Source: Prevotella illustrans
GTDB lineage: Bacteria > Bacteroidota > Bacteroidia > Bacteroidales > Bacteroidaceae
Length of the DNA: 64,000 nucleotides
Direction of reading: 5' to 3'
Assembly (NCBI RefSeq): GCF_017426725.1
Contig: NZ_JAERMS010000006.1
Location: 33,954 to 97,953, forward strand
Part shown: positions 953 to 18,247 of the stretch, piece by piece
How positions within the stretch are numbered: the stretch's first letter is position 1
Layout of the letters: each line of letters opens with the position of its first letter
The notes under the pieces: generated by a model
What the model saw: the letters and a program-made list of their open reading frames with translations, nothing else
The model's database searches: none
Told to the model about the DNA's origin: nothing
Made by a program: the position numbers and the translations under genes

Positions 953-2554
953 ATGATAGCAACTATTCTCCATTCAAGCAGCACATTTAATGCTGTCAAT
1001 TATAACGAAAGAAAGGTGTCTAAGGGTACAGCCGAACTCTTAGAGATTTCTAATTTTGACTATCTTCAAAAGACAGGAAACATAACTGCTGCCAATCTGC
1101 AGGAATATCTGATTAAGTATTCGTCTATCAATCAGAACATAAAGAATACCCAGTTTCATGTTTCTATCTCATGCAAGAAGCAAGAATATACACATGATCA
1201 ACTACTTGATATTGCGCATCAGTATTTGAAAGAAATGGGTTATGCCACCAAGGGGCAACCTGTCTTAATCTATGCACACCATGATACAGGTAATAACCAT
1301 ATCCATATTGTTACAAGTAGAGTGAATCCACAAGGCAAGAAGATAGAGCATGACAACGAGCGGTTACGCTCACAGGTTATCATCAATAAAATTATAGGAA
1401 TTGAGCCAAAACGTGAAGTGAAGGGTATCATTCAAAAGGCTAAGGAATACTCATTTGCTACGTTGGGACAATTTCAGGCTATTTTGGAAAGTAATGGATA
1501 TGAGAGTTATGTGGAAGATGACAAACTCAATATTAAAAAAGGAGGTACTGTCCTGGATAATATTTCCATCAAGGATATAGAGTTGGCTATAACGAAGAAA
1601 ACAAAAGAAGAAAGTAGTAAGCAGCGCAAAAGACTAAAGGCTATTCTTTTAAAATACAAGGAACTGACTTCTAACAAAGAAGATCTCAATAAGATGCTGA
1701 AAAAGAAATTGGGTATATCGCTTGTCTTTGTAGGAAAAAAAGATGCTCCCTATGGATATATGGTGGTGGATCACAAAAACAAGGCTGTGTATAAAGGTAG
1801 TGAAGTCTTAGATATTAAGACTTTGCTTGCGTTTAAGCAACAGGAGAATATATCAGTCGGAGAACGTGAAAAGACTATTTTAGAGTTTGTACATAAGTTG
1901 ATTGAGGAAAACGATAAACTTACTATTGGTAAAGTAAATAAGTCGCTATGGTGGAAATATAAAGTGAATATCTATCATGATGGATATATCAGAGATAAGC
2001 AGCGCAAAATTTCGATTGCCGTTGAAGAGAAAGATTTTTCTATTTTACGCAAGAATTTTAGGAGGCAATGGATTCAAGAATTCAATCCAGCGACCGAAGA
2101 AGAGAGGACTATCCTATGCAAGTTTGGGCATATCGAAGATGAAAGTGTTATTCAGATAAATCCTGATAAAAATAAAGAAAAGATAGATGGTACCGTTAAT
2201 CAAATCCGGGAGATTTTGGGTACGGCGGAAAAAGGACACTTATATGATGACTTGCATAATGCCAAGATCCTTATATTCAGGAAAGAGGAATCGGTATATG
2301 CTGTTGATATGGGTAATTCCACAATCGTTAATCTACGAGATACGAATATAGACTTATCCCCATTGATGAAGCATGAGAGAGGGACGGTTGCGAAGGTACA
2401 GCCGACAAACCCACAACAAACAAATTCCCAACATATCAATACAGAGAATCTGTTACGTCCGACTGGCTCTGATCATCATTCTAACCGTGAGTGGGAAGTT
2501 GGAGGAGGAAGCAACTGGGATGATATAGATGATGAAAGAAGATTTAAGCGATAA
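953..2554 (+). CDS. mobA: MobA/VirD2-family relaxase
   Basis: Nicks oriT and pilots the single strand during conjugative mobilization. The 533-residue protein has the probable catalytic tyrosine in NAVNYNERK (Tyr17) and the metal-binding histidine motif HHDTGNNHIHIV (His109/110, His116, His118), which together define MOB-P-type relaxases. The lysine-rich C-terminal half has no domain I recognise. The ATG directly abuts the right arm of the oriT inverted repeat, so binding by MobA or MobC could repress its own expression. No coupling protein or mating-pair genes are seen, so the element should depend on a helper. Confidence 0.92.
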   Translation: MIATILHSSSTFNAVNYNERKVSKGTAELLEISNFDYLQKTGNITAANLQEYLIKYSSINQNIKNTQFHVSISCKKQEYTHDQLLDIAHQYLKEMGYATKGQPVLIYAHHDTGNNHIHIVTSRVNPQGKKIEHDNERLRSQVIINKIIGIEPKREVKGIIQKAKEYSFATLGQFQAILESNGYESYVEDDKLNIKKGGTVLDNISIKDIELAITKKTKEESSKQRKRLKAILLKYKELTSNKEDLNKMLKKKLGISLVFVGKKDAPYGYMVVDHKNKAVYKGSEVLDIKTLLAFKQQENISVGEREKTILEFVHKLIEENDKLTIGKVNKSLWWKYKVNIYHDGYIRDKQRKISIAVEEKDFSILRKNFRRQWIQEFNPATEEERTILCKFGHIEDESVIQINPDKNKEKIDGTVNQIREILGTAEKGHLYDDLHNAKILIFRKEESVYAVDMGNSTIVNLRDTNIDLSPLMKHERGTVAKVQPTNPQQTNSQHINTENLLRPTGSDHHSNREWEVGGGSNWDDIDDERRFKR

Positions 2555-6401: not shown

Positions 6402-6887
6402 TTATAATAAGGACTTACCTGTAACCTTATATTGACTGAATTCTTTTTTGTAGTGCAGTACGAAACTGTGAAGAATAGCATTGATGATGGTTTGAGTGGA
6501 ATATCCCCCGACCGCATATTTACGAAATGTTGCAAGAATATCCTTATTTACTTTACAAAGAGTCATATTGCCATCTTTCCCTACTATCTTAGGTGAGTTG
6601 TCCTCTTCTTCGCACTGGCTACAGAAGGCAGTCCAAAGCGCATCACCATCTACCATTACCGAAACCGGAGCTGGTGGCAGAGCTTTCGTCAGCTTTTGTT
6701 TTTTAGTCCTTTTCGGTGCTACTGGAACAGGAGCAGGTTTAGTAAGAGTTTCGGTTTCCTTACTCTCTTCTTGTAGCGAAGAAACTTCCTTTTGCCCATG
6801 AATATCCTGGAGCATCCCTTCTAATGTGCCTGGCAATTGCATCATATTCGATGCAGAGTCAGCTATATCTGATTTGTACTTAGTCAT
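6402..6887 (-). CDS. DUF3408 / TraB-like protein
   Basis: The 161-residue protein has a long charged, proline-rich N-terminal part (PAPVPVAPKRTKKQKLTKALPP, residues 52-73) and a C-terminal ~70-residue domain with NKDILATFRKYAVGGYSTQTI, typical of DUF3408 proteins that follow ParA/TraA in Bacteroides conjugative elements. Its start overlaps the ParA stop by 8 bp. It is probably a DNA-binding partner of ParA, with the C-terminus acting as a ribbon-helix-helix domain. Confidence 0.75.
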   Translation of the reverse strand: MTKYKSDIADSASNMMQLPGTLEGMLQDIHGQKEVSSLQEESKETETLTKPAPVPVAPKRTKKQKLTKALPPAPVSVMVDGDALWTAFCSQCEEEDNSPKIVGKDGNMTLCKVNKDILATFRKYAVGGYSTQTIINAILHSFVLHYKKEFSQYKVTGKSLL

Positions 6888-7566
6888 TGTCTGCTATATT
6901 ATATATGGTCTTGTAAATAAAATCGAAGCAACGTTTGGTGTGTTTTGCCACCTTATCATTGTTGCCAATGGTGTTGTATCGTTCCAAGTCGGCATAACTG
7001 CCAACACGAGGAGCAAGAATGCCAAACTTCTGAAAGTATTCATCCACGATCTTCCATGCTTTCAGTTCGCTGTTTTTGCCTACTCGCACATCGTATTTGT
7101 TGCAGACGAAAATGAATTCTGCCTTGATTTGTGGGTGAGCTTGACGCAAACGGAATACCGTAAGGATAAAAGCACGAGTGGAATCTATCGTATTGAGGTC
7201 ATAGTGATATGGGCAGATAATGTAATCAGCATTAATCAAGAGCTGGAGCATACCGTCCTGGGTTAAGCTACCCGGTGTGTCGATCACTGTTGTGCCTGGC
7301 AGTGTACGCAAATTCTGCATGATGGTGCGAGTATTTTCAGGACTCTTAATGGTCATAGACTGTACTACATAAGGTACATCTTCCTGTCTGCGCAAATCGT
7401 CCTTACGACGACCCGAAAAAGTCTGTTGTGGGTCGGCATCAATAACAAGTAATGGCACCTTTCTGTCAACAGAAAGATAGTTCGCAAACAAGCCACATAG
7501 CGTAGTCTTACCGACTCCTCCTTTTTGATTGGCAAACAGGACTATTCTGTTTTCTTGTTGTTCCAT
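6880..7566 (-). CDS. parA: ParA-family ATPase (TraA-like)
   Basis: A deviant Walker A motif, KGGVGKTT (residues 15-22), and DADPQQ at about residue 43 place this 228-residue protein in the ParA/MinD ATPase family. Members move or position DNA or protein cargo. The order ParA-DUF3408-small membrane protein copies the start (traA, traB, traD) of CTnDOT-type transfer regions, so TraA-like is the closest label. No ParB gene is adjacent. It follows a lipoprotein gene by 11 bp and is transcribed from the promoter near 8305-8335. Confidence 0.9.
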   Translation of the reverse strand: MEQQENRIVLFANQKGGVGKTTLCGLFANYLSVDRKVPLLVIDADPQQTFSGRRKDDLRRQEDVPYVVQSMTIKSPENTRTIMQNLRTLPGTTVIDTPGSLTQDGMLQLLINADYIICPYHYDLNTIDSTRAFILTVFRLRQAHPQIKAEFIFVCNKYDVRVGKNSELKAWKIVDEYFQKFGILAPRVGSYADLERYNTIGNNDKVAKHTKRCFDFIYKTIYNIADND

Positions 7567-8532: not shown

Positions 8533-9807
8533 TCACCGACAAAGTCCTGCCCCATATTGAAATTCCATACCTTGTTCAAAACGATTCGTAAAGTGTGTGA
8601 TTTCTCGTCGGGGAAGTCCTATGTCCTCTGCCATATTCTCCCAGTACTTCATGTTTCTTGTTACGTCCTTGATAATACCTCTTGCTGTCGTTTCATCCAA
8701 CATATAAAACTCATGGGCATTATAAAGACTATTGAGAGAACTATCGTTCGAATTGGCATCAATAAGCAATGCCTGAAACATACCGTTCGTTGGGTTTATG
8801 TCGTAAGCAGGGGACAATTCCCAGCCTTCCTTACCAAGCAGGAACGAATGATTTCTAAAGTGATCGTCGGTATTACCAATGCAGATATTAAAGGCTACTC
8901 GCTTATATAGCTCTTCTAAATTAGTCTCTATGTAGTTGCCACCTCCTGAAACGATAAAGTCCACAATATCCAAATAGCCTTTTCCTGTTCTTTGTCCGTC
9001 GCCATCAGTGAGTCCAAGAACGGTAAGAGAAGATGCCATGTGGATTCTCTTGTTTTCTGCGGTTCTGTCAAACCTCTTAGATAGAAGTATATCCTGACCT
9101 GTGCCTGCCTTTATTACTTTTGTTTCTGCTACATTGATACCACATTCTTTAGCCATCAGATGCGCGAAGTGTTCCCATCGAGATACGTTGATGTCATCAT
9201 TGATGGAAGGGAATTTGGCAAGATAAAGATGATTGCCACTTTGCACACAAGCTTTTGGACGTGCTCCACCCATTGAGGAACCAGGTTGGAAAAGCCTTTG
9301 TACCCATTTCTTTTCAGGCTCTAAATGCTTATACTCACTTTTCTCAATCTCCTTAGCAGCTTGTAAAAGTTCATCAATGTGTATGGCAGGCGGAACGCTG
9401 TAACCAGGCGTAGAGCTGATAAATGCTCCGCTATCTGGGTCCTGAAAGCGAAACCCACCCATACGCAGCTCATCTTCCACGCCTTTGAGATAGTCCCAAT
9501 CAGATAAGGTATGGCTTGCTTTCCCTTCTGTTTCTAGTGAAGTACGCAAGTCTATCAGTCGCCGCCCCCATCTGTCAGGGAGAGCATCAGAAAAACAACC
9601 GAAGATGTGGTTATCTCGGCTATATTGTACCCCAGGATATGGGCGGAGGTCTTTCCCAAAGTCAATTTTAGGAAAGGTTTTGAGCCAGTTTTTATTAAAC
9701 TCAAAAGAAAATACGTCAGAGCCTCTTAGGTATTCATGCCCAAGAATGCCTACTTTCTCTTCCTTATCCATCCAGTCGAAACTGGCTATCACATCTATTT
9801 TTTCCAT
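8533..9807 (-). CDS. hipA: HipA-family serine/threonine kinase toxin
   Basis: The 424-residue protein has the HipA hallmarks: an N-terminal coupling domain (FGCFSDALPDRWGRRL near residue 70), the glycine-rich loop GSSMGGARPKA (residues 176-186), the lysine strand YLAKFP (residue 198), the catalytic NTDDHFRNH (Asp314) and the metal site SPAYDIN (Asp336). HipA kinases arrest growth by phosphorylating a translation target (GltX in E. coli). The gene starts 3 bp after the HipB-like antitoxin. On a mobile element the pair likely acts in stabilization or defence; that part is inference. Confidence 0.9.
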   Translation of the reverse strand: MEKIDVIASFDWMDKEEKVGILGHEYLRGSDVFSFEFNKNWLKTFPKIDFGKDLRPYPGVQYSRDNHIFGCFSDALPDRWGRRLIDLRTSLETEGKASHTLSDWDYLKGVEDELRMGGFRFQDPDSGAFISSTPGYSVPPAIHIDELLQAAKEIEKSEYKHLEPEKKWVQRLFQPGSSMGGARPKACVQSGNHLYLAKFPSINDDINVSRWEHFAHLMAKECGINVAETKVIKAGTGQDILLSKRFDRTAENKRIHMASSLTVLGLTDGDGQRTGKGYLDIVDFIVSGGGNYIETNLEELYKRVAFNICIGNTDDHFRNHSFLLGKEGWELSPAYDINPTNGMFQALLIDANSNDSSLNSLYNAHEFYMLDETTARGIIKDVTRNMKYWENMAEDIGLPRREITHFTNRFEQGMEFQYGAGLCR

Positions 9808-9810
9808 GTG

Positions 9811-10128
9811 TTATCTTTTTGAAGCTCGTTTCTTATTCTTAATACCTAGGTCCTGTACCATGTGCCCCAACTTATCGTCTTTAGCCAAATGGAGTATATC
9901 CTCTTCAAGCTGCAGAGCATTGAGTACTCTCATAACAACACCAAGAGAAACCGTAGGCTCTCCTTTTTCTAAACGTGAGAGAGTAAGCCTTGTGCATTGC
10001 GCACGTTGTGCAACCTGATCCATTGTCAGATCTCTTCGTAATCGGGCAAGGCGGAATTGCTCTCCCACTACATTCAGTTTCTCTTGCAGTGATCTGGTCA
10101 TCCAGTTGGCTTTGGTGAATTTTGTCAT
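9811..10128 (-). CDS. hipB: HipB-like XRE-family antitoxin/regulator
   Basis: 105 residues containing one XRE helix-turn-helix (LTMDQVAQRAQCTRLTLSRLE, about residues 32-52) and a basic tail ending KNKKRASKR. It directly precedes hipA with a 3-bp gap and is predicted to bind both HipA and the operon promoter. The ATG at 10128 was chosen over the longer TTG reading at 10149 because that TTG forms part of the TATCTTTG promoter box. Confidence 0.85.
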   Translation of the reverse strand: MTKFTKANWMTRSLQEKLNVVGEQFRLARLRRDLTMDQVAQRAQCTRLTLSRLEKGEPTVSLGVVMRVLNALQLEEDILHLAKDDKLGHMVQDLGIKNKKRASKR

Positions 10129-10146
10129 AATGTATCTTTTGCGGTG

Positions 10147-10154
10147 CAAAGATA
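10147..10154 (-). promoter_or_regulatory. -7 box of the hipBA promoter
   Basis: The minus strand reads TATCTTTG, 18 bp ahead of the hipB ATG. No good -33 TTG is seen, as is common for autorepressed promoters. It indicates that hipBA is transcribed separately from the cluster upstream. Confidence 0.5.
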
Positions 10155-10193: not shown

Positions 10194-10925
10194 TTATAAT
10201 ATTTCTTCATACCACCGTTTTCTCCACTGGTCGATGCCATCTGAAAGTTGTTCTTTGATATATTTGTTCAATTCATTGAATAGTGGCTGAAAGTCTTTGT
10301 CATCTATGGTAAAGTTCCATTCAAAATCCACTGGCATAATGTATTTGCTATAAATCTCAATTCCTGGTAATAGATATTCTGCAACCTTTTTTACCGAGTC
10401 AAAATATTTTGCGTAAAAGAAGAATTGACTATCTTCCCATGTCTTAAAGTAATAGTTACCTACATTATCCTTTTCAAGATGCAGATCAATGACAAATCCA
10501 TGTTGAGGAAAATCTACTTTTGTTATCTTACATCCATACTTTGTTACCTCCTCAATGAGCCTGTAGTTCATTGGGATTGTAGGGCATTTTTTTACTGTCT
10601 CCAAGTCTGGATCACCATAAGTATCTATGAAATCCCATGAAAGCCATAGGGCTAGCTTGTTAAACGGAACAACTTCCTTCTCTCTGCAAAGAAAAATGGT
10701 ATCTTCCATAGTTTGCTCACACGTTTTCATTCCAAACTGTCCTCCTTCATCTGATATTACTGGATATACATTTTGCACGGGTATCTGACACTTACGGCAG
10801 GAAGCGTTTATACCGTCTTTCATGTCTGTAATAATAAACAAGCTGCCTACTTGCAAATAAAAGCTGCCCCGATATAGGACTATTGGGTAAGGACGATCTA
10901 ACTTTATAATAGAATGTTCCACCAT
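10194..10925 (-). CDS. Unknown protein, paralogue A of a ~240-aa pair
   Basis: The 243-residue soluble protein has no domain I recognise. Its N-terminus, KLDRPYPIVLYRGSFYLQVG, matches that of the gene at 11743-12465 (KQDKPYPLVSFEGKLYLQVG). Both then share a YPVI/YPII segment, a cysteine-containing block near residue 68, and a C-terminal helix NKYIKE/NEYIQA, so they are diverged paralogues. It has CRKC at about residues 43-46. It is the last gene of a minus-strand cluster with an HNH nuclease between the two paralogues. Confidence 0.65.
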   Translation of the reverse strand: MVEHSIIKLDRPYPIVLYRGSFYLQVGSLFIITDMKDGINASCRKCQIPVQNVYPVISDEGGQFGMKTCEQTMEDTIFLCREKEVVPFNKLALWLSWDFIDTYGDPDLETVKKCPTIPMNYRLIEEVTKYGCKITKVDFPQHGFVIDLHLEKDNVGNYYFKTWEDSQFFFYAKYFDSVKKVAEYLLPGIEIYSKYIMPVDFEWNFTIDDKDFQPLFNELNKYIKEQLSDGIDQWRKRWYEEIL

Positions 10926-10970
10926 ATAATGTTGTTATTATTGAAGAGTTATTTATGTTTTAAAGAAGAT

Positions 10971-11201
10971 TTATAGTTGTGGTTTCAACCACGCTGTTAT
11001 ACCATTCCTGTGTTCATCATTGTCATCAGGAAAGTCAAGAACAATATGATCAACAACAAAAGGATCATCTGTCAAATCCCAAATGTAGACCAAATCTCCG
11101 ACGCAAGGTCTGAAATCCATTTCACGCTTCATTTTATAAGTTTCACCACTGGCGTCACCATTAAGGTCGACACAAAATTCTACATGTATTTTTTCAGTCA
11201 T
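10971..11201 (-). CDS. Small acidic protein of unknown function
   Basis: 76 residues, acidic, no membrane segment or signal peptide. It contains CVGDLVYIWDLTDDPFVV (from residue 33), which looks like part of a small beta-barrel, but I do not recognise a family. It lies 47 bp after the HNH gene and 45 bp before paralogue A, in the same direction, so it is probably part of that cluster. Confidence 0.55.
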   Translation of the reverse strand: MTEKIHVEFCVDLNGDASGETYKMKREMDFRPCVGDLVYIWDLTDDPFVVDHIVLDFPDDNDEHRNGITAWLKPQL

Positions 11202-11248
11202 ACTATTCCTTTCTATTTGTGATAATTTATATTAAGGGATTATTGGTG

Positions 11249-11542
11249 TCATTTGTTTTTATTGTTTTTACTTGTTTTTACTCTATGCACTGCATCATAT
11301 CGATTATGACAATGCTGACATAAAGCACGGAGGTTATCGGGACTACAATGCTCTGGAGTGTGGTCAAGATGAGCTATTGTAAGAACAACACGTGCCAAAC
11401 GACCAGTTCGCTCGTTGTAGCGAAAGGTATGGTTTCCCACACCACAGAACTCACACCTGTCTCCAGCACGTTCTAATATTTTCTCCCTAATCTTTTTCCA
11501 GTTCTTGGGATATAGCTTCCTGTTTTCGAGTTTGATGGGCAT
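11249..11542 (-). CDS. HNH endonuclease
   Basis: The 97-residue protein carries an HNH fold: CEFCG (first zinc cysteines), the central LTIAHLDHTPEHCSPDNL with the catalytic histidine, and CQHCHNRYDAVH with the second cysteine pair and terminal His. Small HNH proteins of this size occur in phage and mobile-element cargo as restriction or homing nucleases. It starts 4 bp after the stop of a 55-codon gene and lies between the two unknown paralogues. I chose the ATG at 11542 rather than the longer reading from 11587. Confidence 0.85.
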   Translation of the reverse strand: MPIKLENRKLYPKNWKKIREKILERAGDRCEFCGVGNHTFRYNERTGRLARVVLTIAHLDHTPEHCSPDNLRALCQHCHNRYDAVHRVKTSKNNKNK

Positions 11543-11546
11543 AATT

Positions 11547-11714
11547 TTATAATTTTGTTGTTGCTTCAACAAGTGCTGGGCGAACACGGTCTAACAAAGT
11601 TCTTGCATGGATGACACGAGGATCTTTCCTTTCTGATGTATGCAGTGTATAATCAGACAGAAGTTTCTCTATAATGTTAAGTTCGCCCCATTCTGTAATT
11701 TCTACTTTTGTCAT
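11547..11714 (-). CDS. Short gene of 55 codons before the HNH nuclease
   Basis: Reads MTKVEITEWGELN at the start and RTLLDRVRPALVEATTKL at the end. The frame is open, begins with ATG, fills the gap between paralogue B (28 bp away) and the HNH gene (4 bp away), and is cleanly spaced like its neighbours. It has no domain I recognise. It may be a small regulator or immunity partner of the nuclease; this is only a guess from position. Confidence 0.5.
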   Translation of the reverse strand: MTKVEITEWGELNIIEKLLSDYTLHTSERKDPRVIHARTLLDRVRPALVEATTKL

Positions 11715-11742
11715 ATCTTATCCCTTTATTTGTTTATTCAAA

Positions 11743-12465
11743 CTAATCCGCAGTCCATCCTGCTTGAATATACTCATTCAGCTCCTTTATGTAATTATCT
11801 CTTGCTTGGTACGATGGAAAAGAAAAAAGATACTTCTCGTTACAAGTAAAAACAAATTTTAGTTTCTTTCCTACTATGTCGCTATAATCTTTGATTATGC
11901 TCAAGAACTTTTTAGCGGTGGAGTAAACATCCAGCAAGGGAACACAGAAAAAACAAGGTTGTTCATCTGTTTCAAGATAATACTTATCTGGCTCATGATA
12001 CGTGATGAATAAATATATTTTTATGATGTCATCTGCTGGGGGCAGTATAATGCAACCATACTCTTGAAAAGCAAATGCAGTGGAAAGAGGACTAAATGGT
12101 GGTGCATAATCAATCTCGTCTGTTTTATCATCTATATGTACCCTTGAATAGAAATTATTCTCAAAATAATAGTATAGGCTGGTCAGGTTAACCTTCTCGC
12201 CTTCGTGAATATGGTTACACCCCATACACCCTGTTGTTTCAGTACAGATAGTTCTACCTATATCTTCTGTCGATGTGGCAATGATTGGATATGCTTCTTG
12301 ACTACGGTGATAGCCTAATACTTTCTTTCCATCCACAATTTCATCGGAGTCTTCATCCGTAACTACGAACAGAACTCCAACTTGTAGATATAATTTTCCC
12401 TCGAAAGAAACGAGAGGATATGGCTTGTCTTGTTTATAGATTGCCGTAGATGTATTTCTACTCAT
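11743..12465 (-). CDS. Unknown protein, paralogue B of a ~240-aa pair
   Basis: 240 residues sharing the N-terminal KxDxPYPxVxxxGxxYLQVG block and other segments with the 10194-10925 product. It differs in holding a cysteine/histidine cluster, CTETTGCMGCNHIH (about residues 74-87), which could bind zinc. No known domain is recognised. Its start overlaps the DUF3853 gene by 8 bp, so the two are translationally coupled. Confidence 0.65.
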   Translation of the reverse strand: MSRNTSTAIYKQDKPYPLVSFEGKLYLQVGVLFVVTDEDSDEIVDGKKVLGYHRSQEAYPIIATSTEDIGRTICTETTGCMGCNHIHEGEKVNLTSLYYYFENNFYSRVHIDDKTDEIDYAPPFSPLSTAFAFQEYGCIILPPADDIIKIYLFITYHEPDKYYLETDEQPCFFCVPLLDVYSTAKKFLSIIKDYSDIVGKKLKFVFTCNEKYLFSFPSYQARDNYIKELNEYIQAGWTAD

Positions 12466-12757
12466 GATTTTGGGGTTTTAATAAATTGTATATCATGCTT
12501 TTGTCAAACCAGTAGGTAGCACCAATTTTCCTGATAGCAGGATCGAGCTTGCCACTCTTCACAAGGCGGCATACAGTTGGTACACTACAATGCAAATACT
12601 TTGCAAGGTTCTTATATCCTGATAACCACACATCTTCATCGAACAGGTGTTCTGATGCTGTATCTGCGCTGGGTCGATATTCCTTCATAAGATTAACGAA
12701 ATCCTTTACGGATAATTCCGCCAATGGTGTTTGTAAGAATGCTTCTGATAGTTCCAT
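12458..12757 (-). CDS. DUF3853 helix-turn-helix protein
   Basis: 99 residues with a MerR/excisionase-type helix-turn-helix near the C-terminus (YKNLAKYLHCSVPTVCRLVK, residues 50-69), followed by an IGATYWFDKSMIYNLL wing, as in DUF3853 proteins found next to integrases of Bacteroides elements. It heads the unknown cluster and lies next to the integrase, so it may act as an excision factor or a cluster regulator. An oriT-like inverted repeat lies directly upstream. Confidence 0.7.
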   Translation of the reverse strand: MELSEAFLQTPLAELSVKDFVNLMKEYRPSADTASEHLFDEDVWLSGYKNLAKYLHCSVPTVCRLVKSGKLDPAIRKIGATYWFDKSMIYNLLKPQNHE

Positions 12758-12950: not shown

Positions 12951-14261
12951 TTAATTATCGAACTGCTTCATATATTCAGACTTCACTTCGTCCGCTATAT
13001 CAATATAAGGTTTCATCGCTTTATAGTCACTATGACCAGTCCACTTCATTACAACACTGGGGGGGATGCCTTTAGCTAAAGCTGTGCAAATGAAAGTACG
13101 TCGTCCGCAGTGTGTACCGATAAGCTCATATTTGGGGTGTACTTCGTCGACTCGCTTATTTCCCTCATAGTGGGTTGATTTGATAGATTCATCTATGCCT
13201 GCCAACTTACAAAGTGTATGCAGGTGTTTGTTCATCTTTTGATTACTTACTACCGGCAAAACCTTCTTGTTAGGAAAATGTATTTCGGCATACTTATCCA
13301 GTATAGCTTGTGCCTTTGAATTGATTTCTATGAGAAGACGATCAGAAGTCTTGACGGTTACTATCTCTATCTTTCCATTATGTATATCATCCCATGTAAG
13401 GTTGCAAGCATCCGAGTAACGTAAGCCAGTGTAGCAAGTGAAGAGAAATACATCACGTACAGGACCGAGGGCTACATACTTGTCAGGTATTTGAAATGTT
13501 TCAAGCGTATTCAGTTCTTCTGCTGTCAAGAACACAACACGTTTGGTCGCATTTTTCAACTTTGGCTTGTAGTATTCAAATGTATGGTTTGTATGATAGC
13601 CTTTTTCGTAGCACCAACGCAAGAACCACCGCAAGAAACCGAGTTGCTTGTTGATGGTGCTGTTTTTCATACCTTTTTTGCCAAGATAATCAATAAAGTT
13701 GGCTATGCCATCTTCATCAAACTTGTCAAAGGTGAGCTTTTTGTCGAAAGTAAATAGATGATTCCGAAGGGCAGCAAATTTTTCGTGGGTTGCAGAAGTC
13801 CAGTCATTCAGTTTTCCATTGACTTTGACAAATTCATCAAAATACTTCCATAAGCCCTTATCTTTCGTCCCGTTCCTTTTTTTATCCACTTGTTGAACAA
13901 TTAGAGTTCTATCTTTATTCTTGTTCTGCTGTGCAGTTTGTGTGTGAGAGGAACGTTGCTTAGCGAAAGATTTACGAAGTTCAGGTACTGTCGGTACCAC
14001 ATTTCGTAGTTCGTATTCTCGAAATACTGCTATCATATCTGTCAACATCTGCAAAAGTTGATCATTTCGGTCAGTAGCCATGGCAACATTAGAGTTTAAG
14101 GGTAATACACGCTGTTGCACATCGTCCCAATACTCCTTGTTCAAAACGATTCCTGTCTGAAAATCCACCCTGCAACCATTGTACGAAACACGCATACGAA
14201 GTCTGCTTCCAGCATTACGCTGGTTTTGGATAGAGAATTTAATCGTTCGCTTGATGATCAT
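12951..14261 (-). CDS. int: Tyrosine recombinase / integrase
   Basis: 436 residues. An N-terminal arm-binding and SAM-like domain (to about residue 230) is followed by the catalytic domain, with Arg281 in TGLRYSDAC, His384-Arg387 in HCGRR, His410 in WTGHSD and the nucleophile Tyr419 in KPYIDI, the full R-H-R-H-Y set. It integrates and excises the element; the nearby tRNA-Ser 3' fragment suggests its target. It reads away from the junction. A TAACTTTG box at 14280-14287 (minus strand) is its likely -7 element. Confidence 0.93.
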   Translation of the reverse strand: MIIKRTIKFSIQNQRNAGSRLRMRVSYNGCRVDFQTGIVLNKEYWDDVQQRVLPLNSNVAMATDRNDQLLQMLTDMIAVFREYELRNVVPTVPELRKSFAKQRSSHTQTAQQNKNKDRTLIVQQVDKKRNGTKDKGLWKYFDEFVKVNGKLNDWTSATHEKFAALRNHLFTFDKKLTFDKFDEDGIANFIDYLGKKGMKNSTINKQLGFLRWFLRWCYEKGYHTNHTFEYYKPKLKNATKRVVFLTAEELNTLETFQIPDKYVALGPVRDVFLFTCYTGLRYSDACNLTWDDIHNGKIEIVTVKTSDRLLIEINSKAQAILDKYAEIHFPNKKVLPVVSNQKMNKHLHTLCKLAGIDESIKSTHYEGNKRVDEVHPKYELIGTHCGRRTFICTALAKGIPPSVVMKWTGHSDYKAMKPYIDIADEVKSEYMKQFDN

Positions 14262-14990: not shown

Positions 14991-17900
14991 ATGCAGAAGA
15001 TAAAATTCATCCAACGCATGTGGATTGTCCTTTTCCTGAACATCCTATGCAGCGGTCCCCTATGTCTTCCCGCGCTCGCTCAGGAGGCAAACGAAGCGAA
15101 AGTAACCCTTTCACTGCACAATGCCACCATAGAAGAGTTTGCAACGGAGGTAGCCAAACAGACAGGGCTGACCATTTCGTATGACGATAACGACGTGAAA
15201 ACCCTTAAAGGCATCACATTTGATGTGCGCAATCAGTCGTTATCGAGTTTGCTGTTGACATTGAGCAATCAGCTTCCGTTATCCTACAGCTTGGAAGGCA
15301 ATGCGCTGAGGCTGGCTAAAAAAGAACCCGCCCAACGCAAAACCGGCATTTACGGGCAGGTGACGGATGAGCACGGCGAACCTCTGATCGGTGCCATCAT
15401 TCGCGTAGAAGGCGTGAATGGCGGCTACGTCACCGACATCAATGGCGAATATCAGATTCAAACCGATAAGAAAGAAGCCCATATCACTGTTTCGTCCATC
15501 GGCTATCGCACGGTGACAAAAACAGTAAGGAATGGTTCTTCGGCCAATTTCGTCATGCGGGAGGACACACGAGAGATTCAGGAAGTAGTGGTAACAGGCT
15601 ATGTAACGAAGAATAAGAATTCATTCACGGGCGCACAGGTTGCGGTTAACCGCGAGCAACTGATGAACATGGGCACCAAGAACGTGTTGCAAAGCCTGTC
15701 GGCTTTCGTGCCAGGCATGGTCGTTTTGGAAGACAACCTGACCGGTTCGGACCCCAATAAACTGGCCGACATCAACATCCGTGGCCGTGCGACTTTCGAA
15801 GGACAGGCCAATATGCCCGTATTCGTGGTAGACGGTTCTCAGGTCTCGGCAGAGTATGTCTACGACATGGATATGAACGACATCGAATCGGTGACGGTAC
15901 TCAAGGACGCTTCGGCCTCCGCCCTGTATGGCGCCAAAGCTTCGGCGGGTGTCATCGTCATTACCACAAAGGCTTTGAAGGGTGGCAAACTGAAACTCAA
16001 CTACAGCGGAACACTCCGTCTCTCTACCCCAGACTTGCACGATTATCATTTGCTCAACGCCAGCCAAAAGCTGGAATACGAGCGCCTGGCAGGCCTGTTT
16101 ACCGACAGCGACCCCTCCCGTCAATATACCTTAGACCGAGAATACGCACGGTTGTTCAACGAGGTGCAGCGGGGCGTTGACACCGATTGGCTGTCAACCC
16201 CCCTTCGCAATGCCATTTCGCAATCGCACAGTGTGAGCATAGATGGCGGTGACGAGCGGGCCAAATACAACCTGGGCGTGCGCTACGGTAAGGACGCCGG
16301 CGTAATGAAAGGTTCTGACCGCACACGCCTTTCGACGAACTTCAAATTGTCTTACAACGTGTCGGGCAAATTCTTCGTATCGAATACAGCCACCGTCTCC
16401 TCGATAACCAGCAACAATTCGCCTTACGGCGACTTCTCTACATGGGTGCAACAGAACCCTTACGAGAACCCGTACGACGCGGAGGGAGAGTTGCGGATGT
16501 CTTTCTATCATGATATGGCGAACCCTCTTTACGAGGCATCCTTGGGCAGCTACGGCAAGAGCAACACCTTCGACTTCCTCAACACAACGAACGTACAGGT
16601 GTGGTTTGGCGAGAAATTCCGTTTGGACGGCGACTTCTCCGTCGAACGGAGCAAGCAAGACTCGCGACGCTTCGTTTCGCCATTCTCTTATAATGAGATA
16701 CGTTCCAAGTCGTCAGACCAACGTGGCTCGTTGACGGACAGTTGGGTGAACACCACCACTTACCAGGGTAAAATGATGCTGTCTTACAACAATTACTTCA
16801 TGAAAAAGCTCTTTCTCACGGCAATGGGCGGTAGCAGCATCGAGTCTTCTTCCATCGATGCGGCCGGGTATAGATCGATAGGGTTCTATTCCGACAAGCT
16901 CGGTCATCCGGGATTTGCGACCTCATACGACTTGACGGGACGCCCAACGGGTTCCGACACCCGTTCAACAGGCGTGGGCTTCTTCGTCAATGCCAACACG
17001 ATATGGGACAACAAGTATTTCCTCGATTTGATTTACCGTTATGAAGGTTCGTCAAAGTTCGGCAAGAACAGCCGCTTCGCTCCTTTCTGGAGCGTGGGCG
17101 GCGGATGGAACCTGCACAACGAAACATTCATGAAAGGAAAGCCCATCCAGCTCTTGAAACTCCGTGCCAGCATAGGATATCTCGGCAACATCAGCTTCAA
17201 CCCCTACCAGGCGCTAACGACCTACAGCTATAACAGCAACTACAATTACGGTAAGGGCACCGGCGCCACGCCGATAACCATCGGCAATCCCGACCTGAAA
17301 TGGGAACGTACATTAAGCACCAACATCGGTGTAGACTTTACGGCTTTCCGTGGAAGACTGGACCTCTCGGCAGACTATTATATCAAGAACACCGACAACT
17401 TGCTTCTCGACATCACCAAAGCGCCGTCGGTCGGTGTGGCTACCTCGCGCGAGAATAATAGGAGAAGTGGAGAACAAAGGCTTTGAAATGCGCGTTCGCA
17501 CCATCCCCATTCAAAATAAAGACTGGCAATGGTCGCTGGGTTTCACCTATTCGTACAACAAGAACAAAATCAAAAAAATCAGCAACGCGCTGCGCGAACA
17601 GAATGAGATAAACCTCGAAAAGGGCGGCGTGGCTCCGCTTCCCATATACGAGGAAGGCCAGTCTTTGACAGCCATCAAGGTGGTTCCGTCGGCAGGTATC
17701 GACCCCGTTACGGGCCAGGAGATATACATTAAGCGCGACGGTAGCTACACATTCGTGTACGATCCCAACGACAAAGTGATTTTCGGCGACACCAATCCCT
17801 ATGGCATCGGAGCCGTAAACTCCTATCTCACCTATCCGCAACTTCGCTCTGAGCGCGTCGTTCCAGTATTCGTTCGGCGGTTCTTTGTACAACGAGACTC

Positions 17901-18247
17901 TGGCCTCGAAGGTAGAAGGAGCCGACCCAAGGTATAATGCCGACAGGAGAGTGTTGAGCGACCATTGGAAAGAAATGGGCACAATAGCCAAGTATAAGCG
18001 CATCGACGACACCACGACGCCCAACCAGACGTCGCGCTTCATACAGAAAAACAACTATCTGCGCATGAGCAGCCTGGCGCTGTCTTATGAGGTTCCGGTG
18101 ACACTGATTCAAAAGTACGGCCTGAAACGCATGTACTTAGAGTTGCTGACAAACGACCTCTTCTATATCTCTACAGCCAAACGAGAGCGCGGCTTGTCCT
18201 ATCCATACGATAGGAGTATAGAGTTTTCATTACGCTTTTCATTATAA
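14991..18247 (+). pseudogene. susC: SusC/RagA-type TonB-dependent receptor, frameshifted
   Basis: Outer-membrane importer spread over three reading frames. Frame 1 (14991-17486) encodes the signal peptide, an STN domain (about residues 35-105), a CarboxypepD_reg-like domain (from GIYGQVTDEHGEPLIGA), the plug and most of the barrel. It runs out at 17454-17460, where one extra base turns expected REN-IGEVENKGFE into a dead end. Frame 2 covers to about 17836, where an extra C in CTATCCGCAAC again shifts the frame. Frame 3 ends at 18247 with the usual terminal SLRFSL. Rejoined it would be about 1,084 residues, a normal SusC. Both changes could be real mutations or assembly errors. Confidence 0.9.

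Follow-up and report, generated by a model that had tools for sequence, protein, structure and literature searches.

Two members of an uncatalogued Prevotella protein family lie in the cargo slot of an integrative element

The window analysed here, a 64,000-nucleotide stretch of the Prevotella illustrans contig NZ_JAERMS010000006.1 (assembly GCF_017426725.1, positions 33,954 to 97,953), begins with a 15-kb mobile element of low G+C content (38%, compared with 48% to its right). Six genes of this element form a single unidirectional run on the minus strand, and all six reading frames were verified. In the direction of the run, they encode an excisionase-like DUF3853 helix-turn-helix protein (12458–12757; PF12964, 6e-12), the 240-residue paralogue B (11743–12465), a 55-codon product (11547–11714), an HNH endonuclease (11249–11542), an acidic protein of 76 residues (10971–11201) and the 243-residue paralogue A (10194–10925). 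The DUF3853 gene overlaps the B gene by 8 bp, and the remaining gaps measure 4 to 47 bp, an operon-like spacing. A sequence-only reading of the window had described this arrangement correctly, including its location on a mobile element, and had proposed that the six genes form an undescribed defence, anti-defence or toxin-immunity module. The run extends, however, into a HipB-like regulator gene directly downstream of A (9811–10149, minus strand) and a HipA-family gene (8533–9807, minus strand; PF07804, 1e-46), so that the six genes represent an arbitrary cut.

Judged by their sequences, A and B are diverged paralogues. They have the motif K.D.PYP.V...G..YLQVG in common, and their Smith-Waterman score of 131 compares with a best value of 62 among 1000 shuffles. 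BLASTP aligns 70 residues at 36% identity (E 4e-11), while the genome search aligns most of their length at 29% identity (pairwise E 1e-9). The two proteins also cluster together in a quick midpoint-rooted tree of their relatives, in which branch support was not considered. Neither belongs to a family in Pfam, NCBIfam, PADLOC or PHROGs, which agrees with their earlier description as unrecognised; A returned no match among plasmids and viral contigs, and B none among phages. B carries CTETTGCMGCNHIH, the CxxxxxCxxCxHxH cluster that had been noted as missing from A. Since part of this cluster aligns with a DC.V.C motif frequent among the relatives, it looks like a local variant of a family motif that need not imply zinc binding.

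We use the label HOM for the uncatalogued family of A and B. Searches within the genus sampled 199 to 398 genomes, and a search across the order covered 393. Among 199 genomes, B as a single query found nothing outside the window's genome and A found distant matches in three further genomes. With a five-row profile, 56 of 398 genomes of the genus, counting that of the window, had matches at E ≤0.01, some of them weak (down to E 0.007). The order-wide profile search matched one genome of 393, the window's own, in a sample where few other members of the genus were seen. Of 74 loci fetched, 72 yielded a total of 74 open frames with an iterated profile; 69 frames, including A and B, encode at least 200 residues. 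Against a 30-row profile in which both are rows, A and B score E 4e-48 and 5e-40. In another collection, one HOM subtype was found at 11 loci, in metagenome-assembled genomes labelled Prevotella or Prevotellaceae and in Xylanibacter ruminicola D31d; the genus was assigned as Prevotella from the named records there. Within the samples searched, the family is confined to this one genus. Viral contigs queried with relatives gave one clear relative (59%, on a 4.1-kb IMG/VR contig); a second subtype gave one short match that the HOM profile did not recover, a third gave none, and the relative L114 had no match in phage DNA. The 30-row profile matched no PDB sequence, and no title or abstract returned by our literature searches describes the family or the cassette reported below.

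The genomic context of the relatives differs from that of A and B. Of 67 full-length relatives (at least 200 residues, A and B excluded, with near-identical loci such as L043/L044 and L085/L091/L110 kept in), 60 are followed within 3 kb, on the same strand, by a gene of one primase-helicase cluster, here called c1; none has it upstream. Four of the seven remaining relatives lie at a contig end (L066, L075, L078 and L096), and L070 has c1 further on. In 60 cases a partner gene of 180 to 280 codons begins within 120 bp of the HOM end, and many of these overlap HOM. The usual cassette thus consists of HOM, a partner of about 200 residues, sometimes a small gene, and then the primase-helicase. This linkage gives an uncatalogued family, present in a genus of gut and rumen bacteria, a context that can be tested.

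From its sequence, c1 looks like a divergent DUF3987-type primase-helicase; because genes were clustered by single linkage (BLAST E 1e-4, 40% coverage), it may hold diverged subfamilies. DUF3987 is matched at 3e-6 in one copy (27.3 bits against a cut-off of 27) and at 1e-4 in another (21.6 bits), and BT4734-like_N at a weak 0.016 in part of one split copy; L053 and the larger part of the split L040 copy matched neither domain. Four aligned copies share an invariant D101-I102-D103, as expected of motif I (hhhDhD/E) of archaeo-eukaryotic primases as defined in the available part of PMC5862659, and also keep a G-K pair and other blocks. A loose hDxD pattern occurs in 44 of 48 copies of at least 700 residues, a count for which no control was run. 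With DUF3987 matches that are weak to borderline and with the D-x-D of motif I, c1 resembles the BT4734-like/DUF3987 primase-helicases of PMC5862659, but some c1 copies match neither domain, and the portion of that article available to us mentions neither HOM nor the partner families. In phage DNA, the primase query matched two unannotated short records, where the profile found no HOM relative.

These neighbourhoods bear directly on the proposed module. Its operon-like spacing on a mobile element, the two paralogues placed around a nuclease and a weak similarity of the HNH protein to ZorE models all speak for it. A survey of gene neighbourhoods, which the sequence-only reading had itself named beforehand as a refuting test, nevertheless found the homologues scattered without the HNH and small genes. 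The set did not turn up at any second locus, and relatives of A and B mostly precede primases. Conversely, HOM relatives were detected by profile at E 1 around none of the seven other HNH loci (3.3 to 14 kb each), in a run in which A and B scored 2e-52 and 4e-36. We therefore regard a conserved six-gene module as very unlikely, and no support was found for a toxin-immunity pairing. A plausible module read from a single locus can dissolve when relatives are compared.

The HNH assignment stands on a match to PHROG 1571 (1e-22), whereas the Pfam HNH model scores 0.048, below cut-off, and PDB sequences gave no match. The protein contains CEFC, HLDH, N and CQHCHNR, which we take to be the metal-binding and catalytic residues of an HNH enzyme. 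Its most likely start is the ATG at 11542 (97 residues) rather than the upstream GTG at 11587 (112 residues), because most homologues align from residues 13 to 16 of the longer frame. Identification as the ZorE of a type II Zorya system was rejected: the score of 24 bits is far under the cut-off of 600, and ZorA/B matched none of ten element genes scanned. HNH relatives occur in 8 of 200 genus genomes including the window's, one of them as a 29-residue match. Although it resembles phage HNH endonucleases of PHROG 1571, the window gene is cargo of an element, and two relatives are neighbours of C5-cytosine methylases, one (G025) lying one gene away and the other (G225) adjoining a truncated copy. 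An 80% identical copy of the 55-codon gene likewise adjoins the methylase in G025, and the 76-residue protein weakly resembles (32%) part of a 157-residue cargo protein of two sibling elements.

The five elements compared share the DUF3853 gene, a backbone component, and integrase sequence. DUF3853 of this type occurs in 4 of 249 genus genomes, the window's included (the others being G025, G045 and G241), and a fifth element, G457, was found through its HOM match. The tyrosine integrase of the window (12951–14261, minus strand; PF00589, Phage_int_SAM_5) is 73–96% identical to that of three siblings, the stretch read cutting it in G045 and G241; in G457 the integrase is truncated, and only its last 76 residues match. 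On the other side, a lipoprotein-ParA segment is present in four elements and was not found within the stretch read of G457. The ParA-type ATPase of the window (6880–7566, minus strand), also backbone, has counterparts of 78 and 94% identity in two siblings and 90% in a third. L109 (9246–12999) shows two to three tandem copies of ParA with its neighbours, which may be an artefact of assembly.

Next to this constant integrase-DUF3853 side, the content of the slot changes from element to element: G025 has a methylase, HNH and small genes, G045 a methylase and a 194-residue gene, G241 methylases, YopX and further genes, and G457 a split HOM gene and a 193-residue gene. The window cluster is thus mosaic cargo of an otherwise ordinary kind. 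Three siblings hold a 531-residue C5-cytosine methylase in the same slot, one of them with YopX and a second methyltransferase-like gene, and this would fit a slot for anti-restriction or DNA-modification cargo in which A and B protect or process incoming element DNA as the sibling methylases may. It is on account of these methylases that an anti-restriction role survives from the defence or anti-defence proposal, whose conserved module does not. We consider such a role fairly unlikely, as no sequence or fold link from HOM to a known anti-restriction protein was found and HOM elsewhere lies in primase cassettes.

The same slot region adjoins hipBA, and C-terminal remnants 30–93% identical to A lie directly upstream of hipB in four other genomes (G010, G396, G224 and G241). 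This placement would suit A as a third component of the HipBA pair. The remnants, however, are truncated, and one contains stops, whereas the alignments of hipB and hipA are complete or nearly so, indicating that A decays while hipBA stays; and in one sibling an unrelated 194-residue gene occupies that place. A third gene beside hipBA is thus intact in the window, a remnant in four genomes and absent from the slot in a fifth, and we hold a tripartite HipBA system to be highly improbable. A second HipBA pair lies in the slot of two siblings (L135, 1517–2993; L141, 7580–9056), its HipA being 28–29% identical to that of the window.

The cassettes in which HOM is usually found have neighbours of their own. 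In 9 of 61 loci with an upstream gene of at least 150 residues within 5 kb, the nearest such gene is of restriction-modification or Vsr type, on the same strand and at most 81 bp from HOM (L066, L069, L082, L088, L100, L101, L102, L104 and L105; types III, IIG/MmeI and HaeIII-like). Pfam confirmed seven of the nine and L102 is 94% identical to a confirmed one, while L088 was assigned from its sequence, together with PADLOC counts in which the individual members are not named (51 upstream genes scanned). Upstream of two other cassettes lie a Cas9-like gene, identified by reading, with a repeated short sequence nearby (L038, 7018–11328), and a Cas12f/TnpB-like gene identified by Pfam (L046, 3119–4525). 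Such neighbours raise the possibility that the HOM cassette is itself an anti-phage defence system, of which A and B are stray parts. Yet the nearest upstream genes of the other cassettes are varied, many being on the opposite strand or hundreds of bases away, and PADLOC had no match for A or B in a scan that covered these two proteins. Moreover, the primase and the end repeats are in keeping with a replicating element that has defence genes among its cargo, and we consider a defence cassette unlikely. Further cassette neighbours are presumably housekeeping genes such as rpoC, names that we assigned from reading the letters.

Repeats at the cassette ends were analysed in 57 loci for which both flanks were available. 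The best direct match between flanks is often a short iteron-like repeat whose sequence varies with cassette type or subtype. Inverted matches score as high or higher (median 33, compared with 27), which would follow if the repeat occurs in both orientations within the left end. In a stricter test with 520 bp upstream and 160 bp downstream (55 loci, two having been dropped for short flanks), direct end matches reach a score of at least 30 in about half of the cassettes (26/55) and at least 40 in 21. Of 1,100 shuffled pairs 0.09% scored at least 30, as did 4.5% of 2,970 mismatched pairs. In 14 of the 55 cassettes no other downstream flank matches as well as the cassette's own, and in 27 the own flank ranks among the best five, since repeats are common to cassettes of the same type. 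In 67% of loci the inverted repeats of the upstream flank score above the 95th percentile of shuffles. Two hand-picked sequences fold as single-stranded DNA into long hairpins that none of 200 shuffles equalled, namely the left end of L073 (z = -10.3) and the solo copy L148 (z = -5.7).

Copies of these repeats also occur away from cassettes. In six genomes picked for carrying the corresponding cassettes, one repeat type gave 15 matches, 13 at cassette ends and 2 solo, and none in the reversed control. A second type, searched in 284 genomes, gave 13 matches in 7 genomes and none in the control; two of these copies bound the G232 cassette, and the other 11 lie on contigs without a cassette in the HOM profile search, a count qualified by G281, G291 and G314, which were possibly outside that search's sample. 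A solo copy in G474, carried also by G327, aligns over 326 bp with the left ends of the cassettes in these two genomes (89% for G474, 90% for G327), and parts of the G372 left end match it at 91%. In G054, the sequence to the left of the cassette recurs in three repeats that have different iterons. The solo elements L172, L175, L177, L148 and L160 have iteron arms around an AT-rich core, and some match cassette left ends; by sequence, they would be Prevotella repeats resembling miniature inverted-repeat transposable elements (MITEs). They are similar to the BrickBuilt MITE-like repeats of Porphyromonas, a related bacterium, which are also short, dispersed, intergenic and internally repetitive. 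However, according to the accessible text of PMC4596501, BrickBuilt shares inverted ends with IS5-family transposons, while HOM-type ends match a primase cassette and no transposase was recognised.

Shared end repeats, hairpin left ends and solo copies together suggest a mobile element without a recognised recombinase; domain searches found no recombinase domain in the primase copies or the two HOM relatives scanned. Among pairs of relatives whose HOM proteins are 60–90% identical, any other flanking gene cluster is shared in 10 of 68, which fits mobility, though species divergence alone would also lower sharing. It is nonetheless possible, if somewhat unlikely, that the cassettes are not autonomous but sit as ordinary passengers between two dispersed MITE-like repeats and owe their movement to homologous recombination or to an unrelated transposase. 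The 11 of 13 dispersed copies of the second repeat type and the lack of a recognised recombinase in any cassette gene scanned would agree with passengers, in contrast to the cassette-bound first repeat type and the change of repeat sequence with cassette subtype. More tentatively still, and with some doubt, we put forward that HOM, partner and primase-helicase constitute an autonomous, undescribed kind of mobile element without a recognised transposase or integrase. Its ends would be element-specific iterons folding into a long hairpin, its non-autonomous left-end derivatives would be spread over Prevotella genomes, and restriction systems would be its cargo. On this view A and B would have been captured by the window's element, enabling it to exploit or block the other. 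If cassette movement proved autonomous, the cassettes would represent elements built around a primase, with miniature derivatives but no known recombinase, and would account for a set of dispersed Prevotella repeats. The interest of the locus accordingly lies in the uncatalogued family and this possible new small mobile element, more than in the window cluster.

On balance we lean towards the reading that A and B are orphan HOM members in a swappable cargo slot, and that HOM normally heads a replication cassette. HOM would be a non-enzymatic accessory protein acting where cassette replication starts, a role suggested by its gene position, by the neighbouring primase-helicase and by the finding that none of the acidic residues is invariant or nearly so in 30 aligned relatives, the last being a weak argument against an enzyme. 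It may bind the iteron or hairpin left end of the cassette, or single-stranded DNA there. In the window, two HOM genes lie in the cargo slot of an integrative element with integrase, DUF3853, relaxase and parA, next to HNH and small genes that may come from a pool which sibling elements combine with a DNA methylase. A and B would probably serve or tune the DNA processing of this element. The best analogy for the HOM cassette is the replication module of SCCmec. As far as it is described in the available part of PMC7581432, the CCPol-MP-Cch2 operon is likewise a three-gene replication module belonging to a mobile element, with a small accessory protein, a helicase and iteron sequence; the accessory protein makes the polymerase a primase, and the helicase binds a specific site with iterons. 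The likeness is one of description; the SCCmec polymerase belongs to the A family, and its accessory protein is encoded by the middle gene.

Several observations weigh against this reading. A and B have small genes, HNH and hipB as neighbours and neither partner nor primase alongside; no primase was found in their genome with a single query, which would miss distant copies. L084 and L093 lack a primase despite sufficient downstream sequence, and 29 of 55 cassettes have no end repeats at the cut-off. A clean empty site was not found: the joined L073 flanks had no contiguous match in 59 genomes, and the two sides of a solo-copy locus in G372 match on different contigs. A, B and the two relatives scanned have no Pfam domain, and the 46 partners scanned show no consistent family, the matches being confined to single members (one to Relaxase at 0.007), so that no binding activity can be read from the sequences. 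Nor did the models of A and of the L114 relative match a solved fold.

The profile searches and structure prediction that had been suggested as a check returned no known family or solved fold. A was modelled weakly, with a pLDDT of 65, and its closest PDB matches had E 0.09 and, by Z, 3.9. The L114 relative gave a better model (pLDDT 86), with a best PDB match at E 0.18. Its top row in VIA-align was a designed protein (Z = 6.6, r.m.s.d. = 2.9 over 78 residues), followed by RNase T, ribosomal uL18/uS11, SPARTA and others (Z 4.1 to 4.7), mostly over residues 127–232; these model-based rows appear to reflect a common arrangement only. An OB-like N-terminal half, indicated by SSB and PriB rows (E 0.2–0.4), was too weak to use. 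One whole-length fold match was obtained, to the uncharacterised A0A8S5VB40 of Siphoviridae sp. ct0vA12 (E 3e-8, TM 0.5, 14% identity).

Iterons near A and B were sought in the window, and none was convincing. The element also encodes a MobA/VirD2-type relaxase (953–2554, plus strand; PF03432, 1e-19), and its DNA had no match among plasmids. A TraG-type conjugation ATPase lies beyond the shared backbone in the G045 sibling (L140, 5807–8725). Used as a query, it matched the window's genome on other contigs only and not on that of the window, so that self-transfer of the window element lacks support. Elsewhere in the window, a SusC-like receptor gene (14991–18247) appears, by reading, to be split over successive frames of 831, 195 and 120 residues, and seems to be a pseudogene or an assembly error.

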